A stretch of 22,786 nt of DNA from a virus. A program made the position numbers and the translations under genes. The notes under the pieces are model-generated. The model searched no databases and was not told the origin of the DNA. It worked only from the letters and a program-made list of their open reading frames with translations. The stretch covers positions 1-22,786 of the IMG/VR virus record IMGVR_UViG_3300013233_000525; one strand, written 5' to 3'. Shown in pieces: positions 2,545-20,391 of this stretch; the stretch's first letter is position 1, and each line of letters opens with the position of its first letter.

Positions 2545-3525
2545 TCATGATGTGACCCCCAGTTTTGCCCAGCGGGATGTGGGGATGCGGGAGCGTTGCA
2601 AATGGCGGTCGGAAATGGCGATGTAGCCCCAGGTGGTCGCTTCGTTGGCGTGACCCATCAACAGGCGGATCGCGCCAACGTCTATGCCCTCGTCGTACAT
2701 GTCGGTGGCGTAGGTGCTGCGGAGTTTGTGCAGGAATACGCCGGTGGTGACGAGGCCGACGCGCTCGGCGGTGCGTTTGATGACGGCGTGCAGGCCGGAA
2801 TTGCCCAGGGCGCGGCCACTGCTGCCGTGGCGGTTGCCGTGCATGGAGGTGAATAGCGCGGGTTCGTCAGGCTGGGCGTGATTGGCGCGGACGATTAGCC
2901 AGGTCTTGAGCAGCGGGACGATAGGGCCTTCAAACGGGATGACGCGATGCTTCGCACCTTTGCCGATGATGTGAACGCGACCGGTGCGGGTGGCGAGGGT
3001 GACTCTGTCCATCGTCAGGGTGGCCATTTCTTGGCGGCGGATGCCGGTGGCGTAGAAGAGAATTAGCAGGCAGCGGTCGCGCAGGGCGGTGTCGTTTTTC
3101 TGGTCGGATTCGGTAAAAAGCAGCATCAATTCGCGGGGGCTGAATTTTTGCGCGGCCTTGCGGCTGAATTTCGGGGTGGGGACATCGTCGCACGGGTTGG
3201 ACGGCAGATGGCCGTGGTCAACCAGCCAGCCACAAACGGTGCGCAGCGATGAGAGGCGGCTGGCGCGGGTGGCGTTGGATCGGTTGTTGCAGTGCAGGGC
3301 GAGGTGCTTCATCCAGGCTTCGACGGTGTCGCGGGTGAGGGGCAAGCCTTCATCGTTCACCCAAGCGAAAAACAGGCGGGTGATGCGACAATATTTCTCG
3401 GCTGCGGTGGTGCTGCAACCTTTGGTGATCACATGGTAGTCGGTGAATGCTTTGGCGTGGTCTGCCGTCCAGGTGAAGTGACTCATGCGGCGCAGCCGCA
3501 AAACCGAAATGCGAAAATCGGCCAT
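2545..3525 (-). CDS. XerC/XerD-like tyrosine recombinase
   Basis: This 326-residue protein has a complete tyrosine-recombinase catalytic set: Arg163 in ATGIRRQE, Lys189 in IIGKGAKHR, His266-x-x-Arg269 in HKLRST, His292 in MGHANEATT, and the nucleophile Tyr301 in TTWGYIAIS. An N-terminal SAM-like core-binding domain spans about residues 18-110. Length and motif wording (GKGAKHR, LMGHAN) fit the XerC/D group rather than the phage integrase at 5724. An alternative start is the Met at residue 14 (3486); neither has a strong Shine-Dalgarno. It may resolve genome multimers, invert a segment, or belong to a separate inserted element. The target site is not known. The adjacent 334-bp gap is the best place to look for it. 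Confidence 0.9.
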   Translation of the reverse strand: MADFRISVLRLRRMSHFTWTADHAKAFTDYHVITKGCSTTAAEKYCRITRLFFAWVNDEGLPLTRDTVEAWMKHLALHCNNRSNATRASRLSSLRTVCGWLVDHGHLPSNPCDDVPTPKFSRKAAQKFSPRELMLLFTESDQKNDTALRDRCLLILFYATGIRRQEMATLTMDRVTLATRTGRVHIIGKGAKHRVIPFEGPIVPLLKTWLIVRANHAQPDEPALFTSMHGNRHGSSGRALGNSGLHAVIKRTAERVGLVTTGVFLHKLRSTYATDMYDEGIDVGAIRLLMGHANEATTWGYIAISDRHLQRSRIPTSRWAKLGVTS

Positions 3526-3859: not shown

Positions 3860-4546
3860 TCATGCCAACTCCCTCCGCCCTGCCAAATGGTCTGTCTGGC
3901 CGCCCTTTGTGATGCTTGCGAGATTGGCCATGATAGCTGTCGCTGCGATGGGTGCCGGTGATCCGATGCCTTCGCGTCCGGACATCATCACCGCTTTGGC
4001 TTTGGTTTTTTCTCCGATGAATACGACATCAGGAACCCACTCGCCATGCCCTCCGGCTGAATTGTCGCGCTCCAAAATGCCGGGCAGATATTTCAAGTGT
4101 CCGTTGCCTGGACGATAGGCCGCATAAGCCGCGCAGAATTCCTTGCGCGGAAACGGTGAGTCCACATCCACTTTGCCCAAACGCATCCAATCACCGAACG
4201 CCACCTCGATGGCGTAATGAATCGCCGGATCATCAAACGCGACCGACTGATATGTGCCGTGGCTACCCATCGCATCCATCACGCGTGCCCAGGCATATTC
4301 GCCGGCATCCTTCCGTTCATTCCGATCGCCGGATATTTTCGCAATCACATCCGCTGGCTTTGGTGAATACTGCCCACGATCAGGGCATGAGATATGTGCA
4401 GCCACGCCAGCAGACACCTGATCGATTGAAAACTTGAGCAGACAATGCCACCACAAATTCACCGCAGCCTCAGATGGTGCCTTGCCATACACCTCAAACG
4501 CCGCCTTCAAAATATCGCAGAATCTTTTTTTATCAGCATCAACCAT
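3860..4546 (-). CDS. Phage replication P-like protein (helicase-loader position)
   Basis: This 228-residue protein starts at the ATG at 4546, with GAGGTGG just upstream and an 8-bp overlap with the O-like gene. The N-terminal 65 residues (ADKKRFCDILKAAFEVYGKAPSEA, WWHCLLKFSIDQVSAGVAAHI, then GQYSPKPADVIAKI) match the pattern of small phage proteins that follow replication-initiator genes, in which a helical domain recruits other components. The rest has no motif I recognise. By position it is the analogue of lambda P, a helicase loader, but there is no ATPase motif, so loader function is inferred from gene order. The intergenic gap that follows suggests it ends its translational unit. Confidence 0.65.
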   Translation of the reverse strand: MVDADKKRFCDILKAAFEVYGKAPSEAAVNLWWHCLLKFSIDQVSAGVAAHISCPDRGQYSPKPADVIAKISGDRNERKDAGEYAWARVMDAMGSHGTYQSVAFDDPAIHYAIEVAFGDWMRLGKVDVDSPFPRKEFCAAYAAYRPGNGHLKYLPGILERDNSAGGHGEWVPDVVFIGEKTKAKAVMMSGREGIGSPAPIAATAIMANLASITKGGQTDHLAGRRELA

Positions 4547-5405
4547 TGACCACCTCACCCTCTACCGCAGTTTGATTTTCGTACCAGCCATCAATGCCGC
4601 CTTGCGCCATATCCGCTGTTCGGTCTTTATACCGTCCGGACATCACCGCCTCGATAATTTTTGGCGATAACAACCATCCCAGTGACAGCCCCTTGAAGTG
4701 CCGGCCATCCGGTGCTGTTTTTCTGCCGGTCAAAAATGCACTGGCTTCCGCTTTTTTGAAGAGAGCCACCCAATCATCACGGGGTATATTCTCGGTGACG
4801 TTTTTGATCTTGCTTTTCAGACTTGGATGATTCTTTGCAAAATTGAAATCCACTGCCTTTGCTGAAGGCACAAATTGGTGGTAATCAGCGATCAGTTGAA
4901 GCACGGGATCATCGCACGGTAAACCACTACCTACTGAACACTGATCGCCCTTATGTTCAGTGTTCAGTATCTGTACTTCTGAACTCTGAACGCGCGCGCC
5001 TGCGAGGGAATCCGTAATGACTCCCGATTCAGAACGGGAGTTAATCGGTAGTGACTCCGGACTTTTTTCACCCCTTCTTGTAAATTCATCCCTATATTTC
5101 AATAAGTTAGGAATTTCGACCCGGTAAAAAAACTGGTTTTTTATTTGAGAAACTTCCAACTTTATTAAATCTTTTTCTGCAAAGAGTTTGAAGTTTCTTC
5201 GCACTTTCTGTGCAGAAATGTATAAACTATTTGCCCAAAGTTTTGCAGAATATTTCAAAGAAACTTCATTCTTTTTATCCAACTGCCTCCCCACAATCTC
5301 CAAAAGCATGAAATAAATGCCATATCCTTCGACCCCAGACTCCTGGATCACAGCCATTATTTTCTGATCCTGCGCAGCAGTTGTGACGTGTTTAAACCAA
5401 CGCAT
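4539..5405 (-). CDS. Phage replication O-like protein, winged-helix initiator
   Basis: This 288-residue protein starts at ATG 5405, chosen because GGAG lies 7 nt upstream; an upstream in-frame ATG lacks this. The N-terminus (MRWFKHVTTAAQDQKI, then GVEGYGIYFMLLEIV) matches the winged-helix domain of phage replication proteins related to DnaD/Lin1244-type initiators. A Ser-rich linker (about 115-160) joins it to a C-terminal domain with WVALFKKAEASAFLTGRK and SLGWLLSPKIIEAVMSGRYKDR, the usual C-terminal signature of such proteins. Phage O proteins bind iterons inside or near their own gene, but I could not confirm an iteron set. Base composition is more AT-rich than the flanking genes. Confidence 0.75.
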   Translation of the reverse strand: MRWFKHVTTAAQDQKIMAVIQESGVEGYGIYFMLLEIVGRQLDKKNEVSLKYSAKLWANSLYISAQKVRRNFKLFAEKDLIKLEVSQIKNQFFYRVEIPNLLKYRDEFTRRGEKSPESLPINSRSESGVITDSLAGARVQSSEVQILNTEHKGDQCSVGSGLPCDDPVLQLIADYHQFVPSAKAVDFNFAKNHPSLKSKIKNVTENIPRDDWVALFKKAEASAFLTGRKTAPDGRHFKGLSLGWLLSPKIIEAVMSGRYKDRTADMAQGGIDGWYENQTAVEGEVVNG

Positions 5406-5581
5406 AAACATCTCCAATTTTCAGCGAGCAACAGGCACAATTCAGCACGAATTGACTGTGCCCTAACTGTGCCGTAGGTTTTTTCGGGAATGGTACAAAC
5501 AAAAGGTTTTTGAATTTGAAATAATAACCGGCAATTCTCAGGTTTTGGTAAATAGCCCCAAACACAACCCAACGGACAGTT

Positions 5582-5626
5582 CTTTTAATCCGTGGGCCGA
5601 TGGTTCGAGTCCATCTGGGCGCACCA
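5582..5626 (+). other. 3' half of a tRNA-Lys(UUU)-like gene (att core)
   Basis: From 5582 the sequence reads as an anticodon loop CTTTTAA (anticodon TTT), anticodon-stem 3' strand TCCGT, variable loop GGGCC, T arm GATGG-TTCGAGT-CCATC with a perfect 5-bp stem, acceptor 3' strand TGGGCGC, discriminator A and encoded CCA (5624-5626). The 5' half of a tRNA is absent: upstream bases do not form the D arm or the acceptor 5' strand. ACGGA at 5572-5576 could echo the missing anticodon-stem strand but is displaced by five bases. This is the classic core carried by phages that integrate into a tRNA 3' end and restore it. Confidence 0.8.
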
Positions 5627-5656
5627 GAAAAAAGGTAATGATTGTGGTAATTTATG

Positions 5657-5687
5657 GCGGCTGGTGCTTTTGGCACTGGCCGCTTTT
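5657..5687 (+). terminator. Rho-independent terminator-like hairpin behind the tRNA fragment
   Basis: An 11-bp stem (arms 5657-5667 and 5673-5683, nine Watson-Crick pairs and two G-T wobbles) with loop TTTTG is followed by TTTT at 5684-5687. It points in the tRNA direction, 30 bp after the CCA. It would terminate the restored tRNA transcript after integration and also insulate the convergent integrase gene. Confidence 0.55.
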
Positions 5688-5723
5688 GGTTGGAACTGTG
5701 CCTTAACTGTGCCCCGACTTGGG

Positions 5724-6812
5724 CTAGATGACGGCCTTGAGGTTGGGGCGTTTGCGGGCGGTTAGTTGGGCGTAGCGGGCTAAATGGCCGGTGCTGAAAT
5801 GGGCGTAGCGCATGACCATGGCCATGTTGCGCCAGCCGCCTAGCTTTTGCAGGGTTTCCATGGGGCAGTCGGCTTGTGCCATCCATGTTGCCCAGGTGTG
5901 CCGCAGGCTGTGCCAATTGAAGTGTTCCAAGCGTTCTGGCAGGTGTCCGCCGTTGGCTTTTTTGATGCGTTCCAGCGTTCGTTGCAGGGCGTTTCGCCAT
6001 GCCGTGTTGTTGAATCGAGACAGGTTTTTGCCGCGCCATGTGAACACAAACTCCGCGTTTAGGCCGGCGCGACTGTGTAGTATTTCCATGGCATCGGCAT
6101 TGAGCGGGGTGCCCAGTGATCTGCCGTTTTTGGTTTTGTAGATATACATCGCCTGCTTTTCCATGTTGATCTGATCCCAGCGCAGTTGGCATACATTCTG
6201 TTCGCGCAGGCCGGTGTTGAGCGTGAATAGCACCGCATCTTCCTGATGTCGGGCGGTCTGATGCAGTTCTTCGAGTAGCATATCCGTCTCTTCCCGCGTC
6301 ATCCAGACCACACAGCCTTCGGTTTCCTGTCGCATCCGTACGCGGGCGGGCATATCGATCCAACCCCAATCGCACCAGGCAGATCGCAGCACCGAGCGCA
6401 GTAAGGCCGCATGCCGGTTGACTGTCGCGCCGCTGACTCCATCCGCTGCTTTGGCATCCAGCACCGCATCGATGAATTCCCGATCCATCGTATCGAGATA
6501 AACGCCCCGGCAATGCTGATCCAGCCAGCGCAAACGCGAATGATCGTCGCGCAATGATTTTTTGTGACTGTGTTCGGCTAGCCATTTGACGACCGCCTCT
6601 TCCCAGACACGGCGTGGCCGCTCACCAATTTTGGCCTGTCGCCAGATATCGCGCTGCCGCTTGTCGTGGTATTCGCGGGCGCACTGCTTGGCTCCTGGCT
6701 GGTCTGACGTAATCCCAGTGCTTTCTCGTAGTCGCTCGCAACCCGAGATGGTGATGTCGAGATAAGCCGTTTTCGTGATACCGTCCGCGTTGATACGCCA
6801 TCTGATTGACAT
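5724..6812 (-). CDS. int: Phage tyrosine integrase
   Basis: This 362-residue integrase has a strong Shine-Dalgarno (GGAGG 5 nt before the ATG at 6812). The catalytic residues are all present: Arg203 (NTGLREQNV), a Lys in the beta-hairpin KTKNGRSLGTP (about 226-228), His301-x-x-Arg304 in HSLRHTWAT, Trp327 at the His/Trp position (LGGWRNMAM), and Tyr336 in MRYAH. Residues 60-150 form the core-binding domain (TVNRHAALLRSVLRSAW). The N-terminal 45 residues are the likely arm-binding domain. It sits 11 bp from the right-hand arm repeat of the attachment site, so the tRNA core there is very probably its target. Its start lies inside the frame of the excisionase-like gene. Confidence 0.95.
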   Translation of the reverse strand: MSIRWRINADGITKTAYLDITISGCERLRESTGITSDQPGAKQCAREYHDKRQRDIWRQAKIGERPRRVWEEAVVKWLAEHSHKKSLRDDHSRLRWLDQHCRGVYLDTMDREFIDAVLDAKAADGVSGATVNRHAALLRSVLRSAWCDWGWIDMPARVRMRQETEGCVVWMTREETDMLLEELHQTARHQEDAVLFTLNTGLREQNVCQLRWDQINMEKQAMYIYKTKNGRSLGTPLNADAMEILHSRAGLNAEFVFTWRGKNLSRFNNTAWRNALQRTLERIKKANGGHLPERLEHFNWHSLRHTWATWMAQADCPMETLQKLGGWRNMAMVMRYAHFSTGHLARYAQLTARKRPNLKAVI

Positions 6813-7024
6813 GCTTCACCTCCAGTGACCATCCGCGCCCGCATCTGTTCACGCAAGCATGAGCGCAGCTCGGATGCATAGAAATACCACCGCCCACGCC
6901 CGCCGATTTGCACCGCAGGAATCTTGCCGGCCTTCGCCAACACGCGCACATGCGCCGGATGGTTGCCCAGAATAGCGGCAGCATCCTGCAAACCGATGGG
7001 GTTTTCTTCCAGTGCAGTGTTCAT
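6578..7024 (-). CDS. Excisionase-like helix-turn-helix protein
   Basis: This protein has 148 codons, starting at ATG 7024 with an ATGA overlap of the upstream stop. Residues 8-58 (ENPIGLQDAAAILGNHPAHV, then LAKAGKIPAVQIGGRGRWYF) form a MerR/excisionase-type winged HTH: recognition helix, wing with Gly-Arg-Gly-Arg-Trp, then an ASELRSCL helix. Placement immediately upstream of the integrase fits a recombination directionality factor or an integrase regulator. The frame stays open for 235 bp inside the integrase gene, giving a Ser/Arg-rich tail with no recognisable structure; this tail may be dispensable. An alternative role is transcriptional control of the operon. Confidence 0.75.
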   Translation of the reverse strand: MNTALEENPIGLQDAAAILGNHPAHVRVLAKAGKIPAVQIGGRGRWYFYASELRSCLREQMRARMVTGGEACQSDGVSTRTVSRKRLISTSPSRVASDYEKALGLRQTSQEPSSAPANTTTSGSAISGDRPKLVSGHAVSGKRRSSNG

Positions 7025-11399: not shown

Positions 11400-11917
11400 C
11401 GTTGCCCCCGTGCTGCTTCCATCAGTCCATAAAGTTGCTCGACTTCTTCTTTGATGCTGCGGGCAATGGTGTCGAATTCGCGGGGGGTGATGCGCTTGCC
11501 GCCGCGTGAGGCGGGATCGATGGCAGCGGCGATGGTTTGGCAGACTTCGCCCATCTTGTGGCCGCAATCGAGCAGTGCGCAGGCCAGATCGCCGCAGGTT
11601 TGAGGGCGTTTTATTTTCAGGCATAGAATATCCACATCGCGCAAACACTCTTCAAACCATGACGGGTCCATGCCTTCGAGCAGGAGCTGCTGCACGTCAT
11701 CGGCATAAAAACGGTGATCCGGCTTGTGCGGGTCGGCCATGTTGCGGATTTCATCGTGGGTGCGGTGGATCACCTCGGCGGCATATTTCGGCCCCATCGG
11801 TTTGATCGGTGCGCCATCGCGCAAAAAGCGGCTGCCGCCCGGTACGCGCACAATGGAATCATGCAGTGCCTGGTTGGATCGCTCCCGCGCCCGTTTGTTT
11901 TCTACCGTGCTACACAT
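11396..11917 (-). CDS. Hypothetical phage protein
   Basis: This 173-residue protein starts at ATG 11917, overlapping the serine-recombinase stop by 8 bp; the open frame further upstream is a shadow of the recombinase. The protein is mostly helical and charged, with GPKYAAEVIHRTHDEIRN, DDVQQLLLEGMDPSWFEECLRDVDILCL and a Cys/Leu segment (CGDLACALLDCGHKMGEVC). I recognise no domain. It shares the operon with the recombinase and could be its accessory factor, but this is only position. Confidence 0.6.
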   Translation of the reverse strand: MCSTVENKRARERSNQALHDSIVRVPGGSRFLRDGAPIKPMGPKYAAEVIHRTHDEIRNMADPHKPDHRFYADDVQQLLLEGMDPSWFEECLRDVDILCLKIKRPQTCGDLACALLDCGHKMGEVCQTIAAAIDPASRGGKRITPREFDTIARSIKEEVEQLYGLMEAARGQR

Positions 11918-12722
11918 GTCGAACCGCCCGCAATTTCGACGGTGACACCCTGCCATGCGGCGTATCAGACTCTGCCGCATGTGCATCATCCGCCCGGTAT
12001 TCAGTCGCCCACAGGTCAAATTTTTCGACCGTCAGCGGGTGTTTGATGATTTTGCGAATCGTGCCGGGCAGCCAGACCAGCTTACCGCCGCGTGTTTTGT
12101 AGCCTTCATGCCTCAACCTTTCAGCAATATATGGGCTATTGCGCCCCTCAATGCGGTGCAGGATGCAAATTCGATAAAGCGCGTACTGTTCGGCCTGATT
12201 CTCCACCCGTTCGCCATCGACATAATCCCAGCCAAACGGGGGCACGCTGCTATATTGCTGGCCATGATCGCGCTTGTGGCGCAGGGCGTTGCGGGTGCGT
12301 TCGCCGATTTGTTTGCGTTCCAGTTCGCCAAAGGCTGCCGCCATGGTCAGGAAAAAGCCGCCCATCGGGGTGGATGTGTCGAGGCTGACGCCACCGAGAT
12401 CCATGATATGAGTGGCCACGCCCAATGCCTGCAATTCAGGGATGATGGTGATGGCATCCACCGTGCTGCGGAACATGCGATCCAGCTTGCAGGTGACCAC
12501 CGTGTCCATCGCGCCTTGCCGTGCCAGTTTAAGCAGTTGCTTCATGGCCGGTCTGCCAATCACCGATTTACCGGAAAGCCCTTTATCTTCGAGAATTTCC
12601 AGCAGTTCAATATCATGCAGCGCGCAATAGGTTTCTATTTTCTCCACCTGCGCCGCCAGCGATACGCCATGCTCCACCTGTTTATCTGTGGAGACGCGAA
12701 TATATCCGATGGCTGTCTTCAT
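11910..12722 (-). CDS. Serine site-specific recombinase (resolvase/invertase type)
   Basis: This 270-residue protein starts at ATG 12722 with GGAGG 9 nt upstream; the frame beyond that translates a repeat (KLCVLCG). The N-terminal catalytic domain has YIRVSTDKQ with the nucleophile Ser11 and Arg9, then a conserved GLSGKSVIGRPAMKQLL, KLDRMFRS, MGGFFLTMAAAFGELERKQIGERTR. It is followed by a recombinase DNA-binding domain (PPFGWDY, then YIAERLRHEGYKTRGG, then GTIRKIIKHP). It is shorter than large serine integrases and longer than simple resolvases. It may invert or move a segment, or be the relic of a mobile element: a pair of inverted repeats and a palindrome lie just upstream (12737-12842). 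An integrated tyrosine integrase is also present, so its job in this phage is unclear. Confidence 0.9.
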   Translation of the reverse strand: MKTAIGYIRVSTDKQVEHGVSLAAQVEKIETYCALHDIELLEILEDKGLSGKSVIGRPAMKQLLKLARQGAMDTVVTCKLDRMFRSTVDAITIIPELQALGVATHIMDLGGVSLDTSTPMGGFFLTMAAAFGELERKQIGERTRNALRHKRDHGQQYSSVPPFGWDYVDGERVENQAEQYALYRICILHRIEGRNSPYIAERLRHEGYKTRGGKLVWLPGTIRKIIKHPLTVEKFDLWATEYRADDAHAAESDTPHGRVSPSKLRAVRHV

Positions 12723-12736
12723 AAGCTTAAAACCTC

Positions 12737-12842
12737 CACCGCAGAGAACGCAGAGTTTCGCAGAGTAACAAACAAGCATGTGCATGCTGTATTGTCGTTT
12801 TTTTGCATTTCCTTCGTGCCCTCTGTGATCTTCGTGGTGAAA
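12737..12842. repeat. Inverted pair of 10-bp-periodic repeats around a palindrome
   Basis: The left arm, 12737-12768, has CGCAGAG units at 10-bp spacing after CACC. The right arm, 12811-12842, is the reverse-strand counterpart with CTTCGTG/CTCTGTG units ending in GGTGAAA. Between them is a 14-bp palindrome, AGCATG-TG-CATGCT, at 12775-12788. The block sits directly upstream of the serine recombinase and may also hold its promoter or target site. Confidence 0.65.
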
Positions 12843-17889: not shown

Positions 17890-20391
17890 TCACAGTGTCA
17901 CCTGCGTTTGTTCGGCGGATAGATTCAGTGTTGCTGCGCCCCACTGATCGCGGGCTGCTACGATCAGGTAGTAGGTCGTACCGGTGGTCAGGCCGGTGAG
18001 GGTCGCAGCGGTTGCTGTACCGGTGTAGGCCAGCGTGGTGGCATCCGGCGTGAATCCGGATGTGGTGCTGATCCATACCTGATAATCCTGCAAATCGATA
18101 TCGGCCACCGCGTTCCAGTTGATGTCGATCGTCGTGGTGCTGTTGCTGGCGGTAGCGATGCCGGTCGGCGCAGCCGGAGTCGGGTTGCTGATGTTAAGCT
18201 GGGCAAATCCGGATAGCTGTGCGCCGGTAACTGATCGCACTTTGACGGTGTAATCGCGCCATGGGCCACCATCAGCCACCGCATCAGATTGGGCATAGGT
18301 GAATGTGGTCGATGTGGTGGAGCTACTGCGCCGCAAGATGCCGCCGCTCCAGATTTCGATATCGTAACTGGTTGCGCCAACCACGGCTGTCCATTGAATT
18401 TTGAAGGTCAAACCGACAAATGCTGATTGCAGTGCCAAATTGGCGGGGCCGGTCAAGGTGCCTCCGGATAAGGTGCGGTTGTAGGCCGTGACATTGGCCA
18501 GCGATTCTTCGGCATGGCCAAAAGCATTGAATGATGTGAACTTGAAATAGACCGTCTGGCCAACCAGCGATGCATTGTAGACGTATTTGAACATCGCCTG
18601 ATCGAGCCGGGCAAACTGCACGCCTGCATTGTGCGCAGCGGCAGCGGTGCCAAACAGGCCTCGGCGCAGATACGATAGTGCATAGCGGCGATTGGTGACC
18701 AGATTCGCATCACGATAGGCCAGCATCTCACCACCGACATAGCAAAGCGACACAGCAGCATCTACTGCCGCTTGCGAGGCGGGCAGGATCTGACCATCGG
18801 TGTTGAGATCGATGGTGAGCGTGTTGGCAATATCGGGATCCAGTGCTGATGCAGCCAGGGCGGTATTGAGTGTGCCGAATCGAGCATCGCCATAAATCGT
18901 GCCGACCTGTTCAAACGTGGCATTATCGAGACTGACACAGACATTGCAGCCGCCCCAATCGATGCCGCCGGACACGGCTGCCCAAACTTCATTGGAGCCG
19001 CCCGATAGCGACAGCGGCGGCTCGAATAATAGCGGCGCATTGACGCTGCCGGGTGGTGTATTCCACCCCACCGAAAAACCACCGCCGCCGTTTGCTGCAT
19101 ATTGCGCCGGATCAGCCACGCCAATGGGGAATTCTTCAGCCGTGATGTGGATATCGCCCTGATCGTTTTCTTCGGTTGAAATAATCCGCGCCGGGAATCG
19201 ATCAAGACCCAGATCAGCATCGGTGAGCGTGACGATATCCATCGGCTCCAGGCGGCAGTAATTCCAGCCCAGATCAAACTCATACTGATTGCGGATATAG
19301 AGCACCCGTTGCAGCCGCGCCTGCGCTACTTTCTGAGCCACTGCGGCGGTGGTAATCCAGTGCATCTTTTGCACATCTTCCTGCCGCAAGCCATAGCCTT
19401 CGATATTGGCCTGATCTTTGGCTTCGGCAATGGCGATATTGTAATCATTGGCGCGATCCACATATTCGACCTGCACGGCATTGAATGCATCAGCCGTGGG
19501 TGTGCGGCGGCACAGTACCGGCGCATCTTGTGTATCGAGAAAATCGTCATCGGTGAGATCATAAAGCGGCGTGTTGTCCGGCGTGAACGTGTGGCCATTG
19601 CCGGTCACTGTAGTATCAGCGCGCGGGATAATTTTGAGCAACCCTTCCGAATAGACGAATTCGCAACCAACTGAGTTGACCAGTGCAAGCAAATGCTCCT
19701 GTGCCGCTTTTTGCTCCACAAAGGCAGGCGATACAAACAGACCGGCGGCAATGCAATAATCTGAAAACGGTGTCAGATCGCCGATAGATGATGTAGGAAA
19801 TCCGGCTCCGTGCGTGGCATGGGTCAGGAAATCCATCAGCACGGCTTTAGGATCAGCATCAACAATGCCGCCGGAAAACTGCAACGGCCCCAACACCTCA
19901 AAATTATGATTACCCAGGTTGGCACTGCCACCCAGAGCATAGGACGCATGCGCCACATAGGCCATTTCGCTGTAGCCAATCGCCTCGGCGGCATGATTGG
20001 TGGTCAAATGACCCCACACAGCCTGCGCCATCGCGCCCAAAAAGGCCGACATGCCTCCGGCGGCAACCAGATCAGCAAACTTGGTTTTATCTTTCCACAC
20101 CGCACCGATGCCGACGATAACTCCTTCGCACAGACCAATAGCCAGCGCCGTGGTGTAGGTATAGGTGGTGTTCGATTGCGTCGCGCCGCCGCCCTTGCCT
20201 CCGGTGGTTTGCGTCGTGGTGTGCGCAATCGGTGTGAAATCACCATACCAGATCAGATTGCCGGAAATGCGTTGTTGGCCATAGACCAGCGGAATCACCT
20301 GACCATAGCTGGATGTCTGAATCTTGAGCGCACCGAGCCGTGGCTCAGTTGTAGAGATCGTGCCGCCACCGCCACCGAATAAACCGCCCAC
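17890..20391 (-). CDS. Phage tail-tip protein with C-terminal fibronectin-III-like repeats
   Basis: This 833-residue protein starts at a GTG at 20391 with GGAG about 7 nt upstream. The Gly-rich start (GGLFGGGGGTI) is followed by a segment with LGALKIQTSSYGQVIPLVYGQQRISGNLIW, the hallmark of the phage tail/central tip protein related to lambda J and gene-transfer-agent tip proteins. The middle (about 130-450) is the conserved tip core (NSVGCEFVYSEGLLKIIPRAD, LRLEPMDIVTLTDADLGL). From about residue 650 the sequence repeats as Ser/Thr-rich beta domains with NLALQSAFVGLTFKIQWTAV and SNPTPAAPTGIATASNSTTTIDINW, two or more fibronectin-III-like units. It probably contacts the host receptor or carries the fibres. 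Its start is in a small hairpin. Confidence 0.85.
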   Translation of the reverse strand: MGGLFGGGGGTISTTEPRLGALKIQTSSYGQVIPLVYGQQRISGNLIWYGDFTPIAHTTTQTTGGKGGGATQSNTTYTYTTALAIGLCEGVIVGIGAVWKDKTKFADLVAAGGMSAFLGAMAQAVWGHLTTNHAAEAIGYSEMAYVAHASYALGGSANLGNHNFEVLGPLQFSGGIVDADPKAVLMDFLTHATHGAGFPTSSIGDLTPFSDYCIAAGLFVSPAFVEQKAAQEHLLALVNSVGCEFVYSEGLLKIIPRADTTVTGNGHTFTPDNTPLYDLTDDDFLDTQDAPVLCRRTPTADAFNAVQVEYVDRANDYNIAIAEAKDQANIEGYGLRQEDVQKMHWITTAAVAQKVAQARLQRVLYIRNQYEFDLGWNYCRLEPMDIVTLTDADLGLDRFPARIISTEENDQGDIHITAEEFPIGVADPAQYAANGGGGFSVGWNTPPGSVNAPLLFEPPLSLSGGSNEVWAAVSGGIDWGGCNVCVSLDNATFEQVGTIYGDARFGTLNTALAASALDPDIANTLTIDLNTDGQILPASQAAVDAAVSLCYVGGEMLAYRDANLVTNRRYALSYLRRGLFGTAAAAHNAGVQFARLDQAMFKYVYNASLVGQTVYFKFTSFNAFGHAEESLANVTAYNRTLSGGTLTGPANLALQSAFVGLTFKIQWTAVVGATSYDIEIWSGGILRRSSSTTSTTFTYAQSDAVADGGPWRDYTVKVRSVTGAQLSGFAQLNISNPTPAAPTGIATASNSTTTIDINWNAVADIDLQDYQVWISTTSGFTPDATTLAYTGTATAATLTGLTTGTTYYLIVAARDQWGAATLNLSAEQTQVTL

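Follow-up and report, generated by a model that had tools for sequence, protein, structure and literature searches.

Among the genomic islands that occupy tRNA genes, those with an anticodon-type attP constitute class A of Islander, in which the attP spans about 250 bp and includes a 3' fragment of the tDNA (PMC4383910). Hetero-bivalent integrases bind arm-type as well as core-type sites, as exemplified by IntS of KplE1, whose intS promoter overlaps attL (PMC2951348). For the Zetaproteobacteria, which are marine iron-oxidising bacteria, a Mu-like phage has earlier been tied to its host by means of CRISPR spacers (PMC8114936).

In this study we analysed the whole of the IMG/VR virus record IMGVR_UViG_3300013233_000525, a linear virus fragment of 22,786 bp (hereafter the window), in which positions 5455-5713 resemble the class A sites both in extent and in carrying a tDNA 3' fragment. 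To judge from its sequence, the site is the attP of a tRNA-targeting, hetero-bivalent tyrosine integrase of the lambda/P22 type and of the anticodon-loop class. Unlike the arrangement in KplE1, the integrase gene (int) of the window points towards the tRNA sequence. The best match to its product among phage records is the integrase of the Haemophilus/Aggregatibacter phage Aaphi23 (37% identical), which likewise has an arm-like pair, TTTGTGCC with a period of 11, beside the int stop; the Aaphi23 record ends before the P side, and that phage has a different host.

Paired arm repeats and a tRNA-Lys core

A motif search of the record found ACTGTGCC five times, against 0.78 matches expected, and none of 100 shuffles gave five. 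Four copies lie on the plus strand as two pairs, both with a period of 11 bp: a P-arm pair at 5455-5473 (copies at 5455-5462 and 5466-5473) and a P'-arm pair at 5695-5713 (copies at 5695-5702 and 5706-5713), the latter with 10 bp between its end and the stop codon of the integrase gene. As described in an earlier sequence-only reading, the pairs flank a 45-bp 3' half of tRNA-Lys(UUU); the distance of 222 bp given there was right to within one base, the measured inner gap being 221 bp (5474-5694). Within spans of 400 bp, ACTGTGCC is the sole 8-mer of the window whose pair recurs with the same period, and no such twice-occurring equal-period pair within 400 bp arose in 300 first-order Markov randomisations of the window. 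As to whether these pairs might be common elsewhere in the genome, a point raised by the same reading, the record holds no other pair, the fifth copy being a lone one at 19509 on the minus strand. A literature search for ACTGTGCC returned only unrelated primers and similar matches. An occurrence of ATTGTGCC at 5434-5441 (minus strand), considered as a possible third, inverted arm, is not claimed here, having no counterpart near the attR of the Zetaproteobacteria prophage G078 described below. The best match to the IHF consensus has two mismatches, and none has fewer.

The core of the site (5582-5626, plus strand) reads CTTTTAATCC...GCACCA and corresponds over its 45 bp to positions 32-76 of tRNA-Lys(UUU), from the anticodon loop to CCA; ARAGORN detected no complete tRNA in the window. 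A terminator-like hairpin of 13 pairs followed by a T tail occupies 5656-5684 (plus strand), between the core and the P' arm; 0.6 such sites were expected in shuffles. Folding of 5640-5692 yielded -23.7 kcal/mol (z -5.2), and hairpins occupy the equivalent place behind the tRNA of one relative (L020) and at an empty host site (L003).

Integrase, excisionase-like gene and flanking phage genes

The sequence-only reading had placed the site next to an integrase with phage genes continuing on both sides, and family matches bear this out. The tyrosine integrase gene (5724-6812, minus strand; 362 aa) matches PF00589 (E 2e-31) and the integrase family phrog_1 (E 3e-49), its catalytic domain is present, and its translation shows the R, K, HSLRH, W and Y motif residues. 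An HTH_17 excisionase-like gene (6578-7024, minus strand; PF12728, phrog_66 excisionase) overlaps the int start and has a homologue in the same place beside int in three relatives; it is probably the directionality factor. Assuming that int starts at 6812, the overlap (6578-6812) is about 235 bp long; phage APSE-2 (L096) has a comparable overlap in its annotation.

On the P side stands a replication-initiation or DnaD-like gene (4539-5417, minus strand; phrog_10469, phrog_345, PF14297) with a 91% relative in a viral contig. Similarity to it was detected in one of 78 Zetaproteobacteria genomes, and there only in part. Since this gene has phage relatives and is absent from nearly all Zetaproteobacteria genomes, the P side is phage DNA and not host chromosome. 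Further left lies a Mor-type late activator (1590-1970), and to the right of the attP follow repressor, anti-repressor, endolysin and tail genes. No host genes were seen in the window beyond either side of the site, including directly beyond the tRNA fragment, where the earlier reading would have looked for them.

Two viral contigs from the same IMG/VR sample, 3300013233 (L002 and L081), are 91-97% related to window proteins. They are the only close phage fragments among viral contigs, both without an attP. The former ends in int (residues 1-100) and the latter carries the replication gene from residue 77, so that the assembly was evidently interrupted to either side of the attP.

Three site-specific recombinase genes were recognized in this phage, the other two being a second tyrosine recombinase, XerC/D-like (2545-3525, minus strand; TIGR02224, E 2e-44, under the curated cut-off), and a serine recombinase/resolvase (11910-12785, minus strand; PF00239, phrog_95/phrog_125), a 40% relative of which occurs in the G077 prophage (L047). 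With two further recombinase genes at hand, integration might be assigned to one of them, and the repeats and tRNA fragment taken for a chance or decayed remnant. Such a remnant is nevertheless hard to credit: the repeat structure was unmatched in the randomisations, the core is unmutated over its 45 bp, and the adjacent integrase is intact and has relatives that lie at tRNA genes and possess equivalent sites.

Integrated relatives in Zetaproteobacteria

An integrase search of the 78 Zetaproteobacteria genomes identified four relatives (44-58% identity) in three genomes, each adjoining a tRNA gene: tRNA-Lys in G078 and on contig C67 of G070, tRNA-Asn on contig C68 of G070 and in G077. Like the window, the prophages of G078, G070 and G077 have int convergent with the tRNA gene and arm pairs with a period of 11; in contrast to the window, which carries both arms unsplit, they are integrated and bear other arm motifs. 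The sequence-only reading had reasoned that integration separates the arms between attL and attR, and this is the state of three integrated relatives with equivalent arms, in which one arm pair stands at attL, next to int and a complete tRNA, and its counterpart at attR, next to a tRNA fragment that has been displaced. Pairs equivalent to the P' pair of the window stand at attL in four relatives, and pairs equivalent to its P pair at attR in three.

In G078 both ends lie on one contig (C7, 168.6-204.5 kb), with CGTGAC pairs at attL (168698) and attR (204345) and a core duplication of 34 bp, the copies being 35.9 kb apart. The order at attL is complete tRNA-Lys, CGTGACcatatCGTGAC and int; at attR it is CGTGACcaaatCGTGAC, the 34-bp tRNA 3' copy, tRNA-Glu and a glutamate-synthase-like gene of 1554 aa, the last two names having been assigned by sequence reading and not by family search. 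The attR fragment (G078:C7:204471-204504; L058), at 34 bp, is without the last 11 tRNA bases, and its shortness suggests decay or deletion after an old integration. In G070, TTGTGCC pairs accompany the tRNA-Asn and GGCGTAACTCTGACGTA pairs the tRNA-Lys. The ends here lie on separate contigs and were paired by their common arm motif and core: TTGTGCCCTGGTTGTGCC adjoins a 47-bp tRNA-Asn copy on C5 (partner of C68), and GGCGTAACTCTGACGTAG adjoins a 45-bp tRNA-Lys copy on C27 (partner of C67), with a tRNA-Glu beyond. No attR was found for the G077 element (C69).

A TGTGCC pair on contig C4 of G070 was rejected as an att site, having no tRNA fragment alongside. Across the 78 genomes, TGTGCC pairs with a period of 11 number 60, against 3 for the reversed motif, a control that accounts only partly for composition, and triples occur in some genomes (G018, G027, G049, G064 and G067). 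Most of the pairs elsewhere (L059-L078) were not taken as att sites, since a tRNA gene lay nearby at no more than 4 of 20 inspected loci.

Different Zetaproteobacteria integrases have the tRNA-Lys gene as a common target, so that the site in the window might conceivably be a junction of two different elements at one tRNA-Lys, the attR of one meeting the attL of the next. Arm motifs differ between elements, however, and yet the four arms of the window are the same 8-mer with equal spacing, which renders a junction of this kind very improbable.

Host tRNA-Lys gene as candidate attB

The exact 45-bp core was found in eight of 84,980 species genomes, all of them Zetaproteobacteria (Mariprofundus and kin), namely Mariprofundus sp. 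EBB-1 and related isolates and MAGs; the core allele is therefore present in 8 of the 78 Zetaproteobacteria genomes. Each of the eight copies sits inside a complete tRNA-Lys(UUU) gene, as anticipated by the earlier proposal to search host genomes for one, and phage/host identity runs from C32 to CCA. Viral contigs gave no match to the exact core. Because the core occurs only in intact Zetaproteobacteria tRNA-Lys genes, the gene that contains it is the probable attB, and the identity between attP and attB makes Zetaproteobacteria the likely host class of the phage. No close relative of the window integrase was found in the eight core-bearing genomes, which consequently represent the attB sequence without this phage.

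Interpretation of the site as a complete attP

The site is not an attL, because the 5' half of the tRNA is missing to the left of 5582, nor an attR, because int and not host DNA lies to the right of 5626. Both arm halves, sharing one motif, are contained in the window, in agreement with the proposal of an intact attP made from the letters of the sequence. We estimate a probability of roughly 0.9 that 5455-5713 is a complete attP belonging to a temperate, tailed Zetaproteobacteria phage, sequenced in an unintegrated state (circle or virion) or, less likely, as part of a tandem of identical prophages. We infer this physical form from the presence of both arm pairs and one core amid the genes of one phage, an arrangement that points to the same two states, unintegrated or tandem, as had been proposed before; the split state of the relatives is absent from the window. 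The record is linear without an end repeat, and no circular junction was seen in it.

If two copies of the same prophage lay in tandem in a chromosome, their central junction would have the sequence of attP and be inseparable from it by sequence alone, and tandem islands do occur at tRNA genes (Islander table, 'Tandems >= 2: 125'; PMC4383910). We regard this as improbable, as it requires a rarer configuration and the fragment is without host DNA, both contig ends lying in phage genes.

For the unintegrated attP, protein binding and strand exchange can be predicted as follows. The N-terminal domain of the integrase (5724-6812) would bind the two ACTGTGCC pairs and its catalytic domain the tRNA-derived core, and the enzyme would then exchange strands between this core and the part of the host tRNA-Lys(UUU) gene that encodes the anticodon loop. 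The phage sequence 5582-5626 would substitute for the 3' half of the host tRNA, and the P pair would end up in attR, with its P' counterpart in attL. Transcription of the regenerated tRNA may be terminated by the hairpin at 5656-5684. Integration would in this manner supply the restored tRNA gene with a new terminator in addition to a new 3' half.

Conserved layout and variable arm motifs

When distances are taken from the first arm base to tRNA position 32, the P arm lies at -127 in the window and at -126, -126 and -123 in the elements compared, and the P' arm at +113 in the window and at +93, +93, +97 and +116 in the others. The P side of G078 and G070, at 123-126 bp from the core, is thus like that of the window, whereas their P' pair is some 16-20 bp nearer the core; overall, the P' distances fall into two clusters separated by some 20 bp, or nearly two turns of the helix. 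Core identity starts at tRNA position 32 in the window and in all relatives compared. The arm motif differs by element (ACTGTGCC, TTGTGCC, CGTGAC, CGTAA and TGTGTC) while the layout stays constant, and the two sides of the window share one identical motif in all four 8-mers.

An anticodon-loop attP with a tRNA 3' fragment belongs to a standard class, and the site in the window is in itself ordinary; the useful result is a host class for an anonymous virus fragment, together with the comparison of related att sites. This comparison raises the possibility, to which we would give even odds, that the phage belongs to a group, so far little described, of siphovirus-like phages that target tRNA genes in iron-oxidising Zetaproteobacteria and share a fixed attP scaffold (P at about 126 bp, P' at about 95 or about 115 bp, period 11), upon which arm specificity and target would evolve. 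With varied arm motifs at nearly fixed spacing, these related att sites constitute a small natural data set on change in integrase arm specificity.
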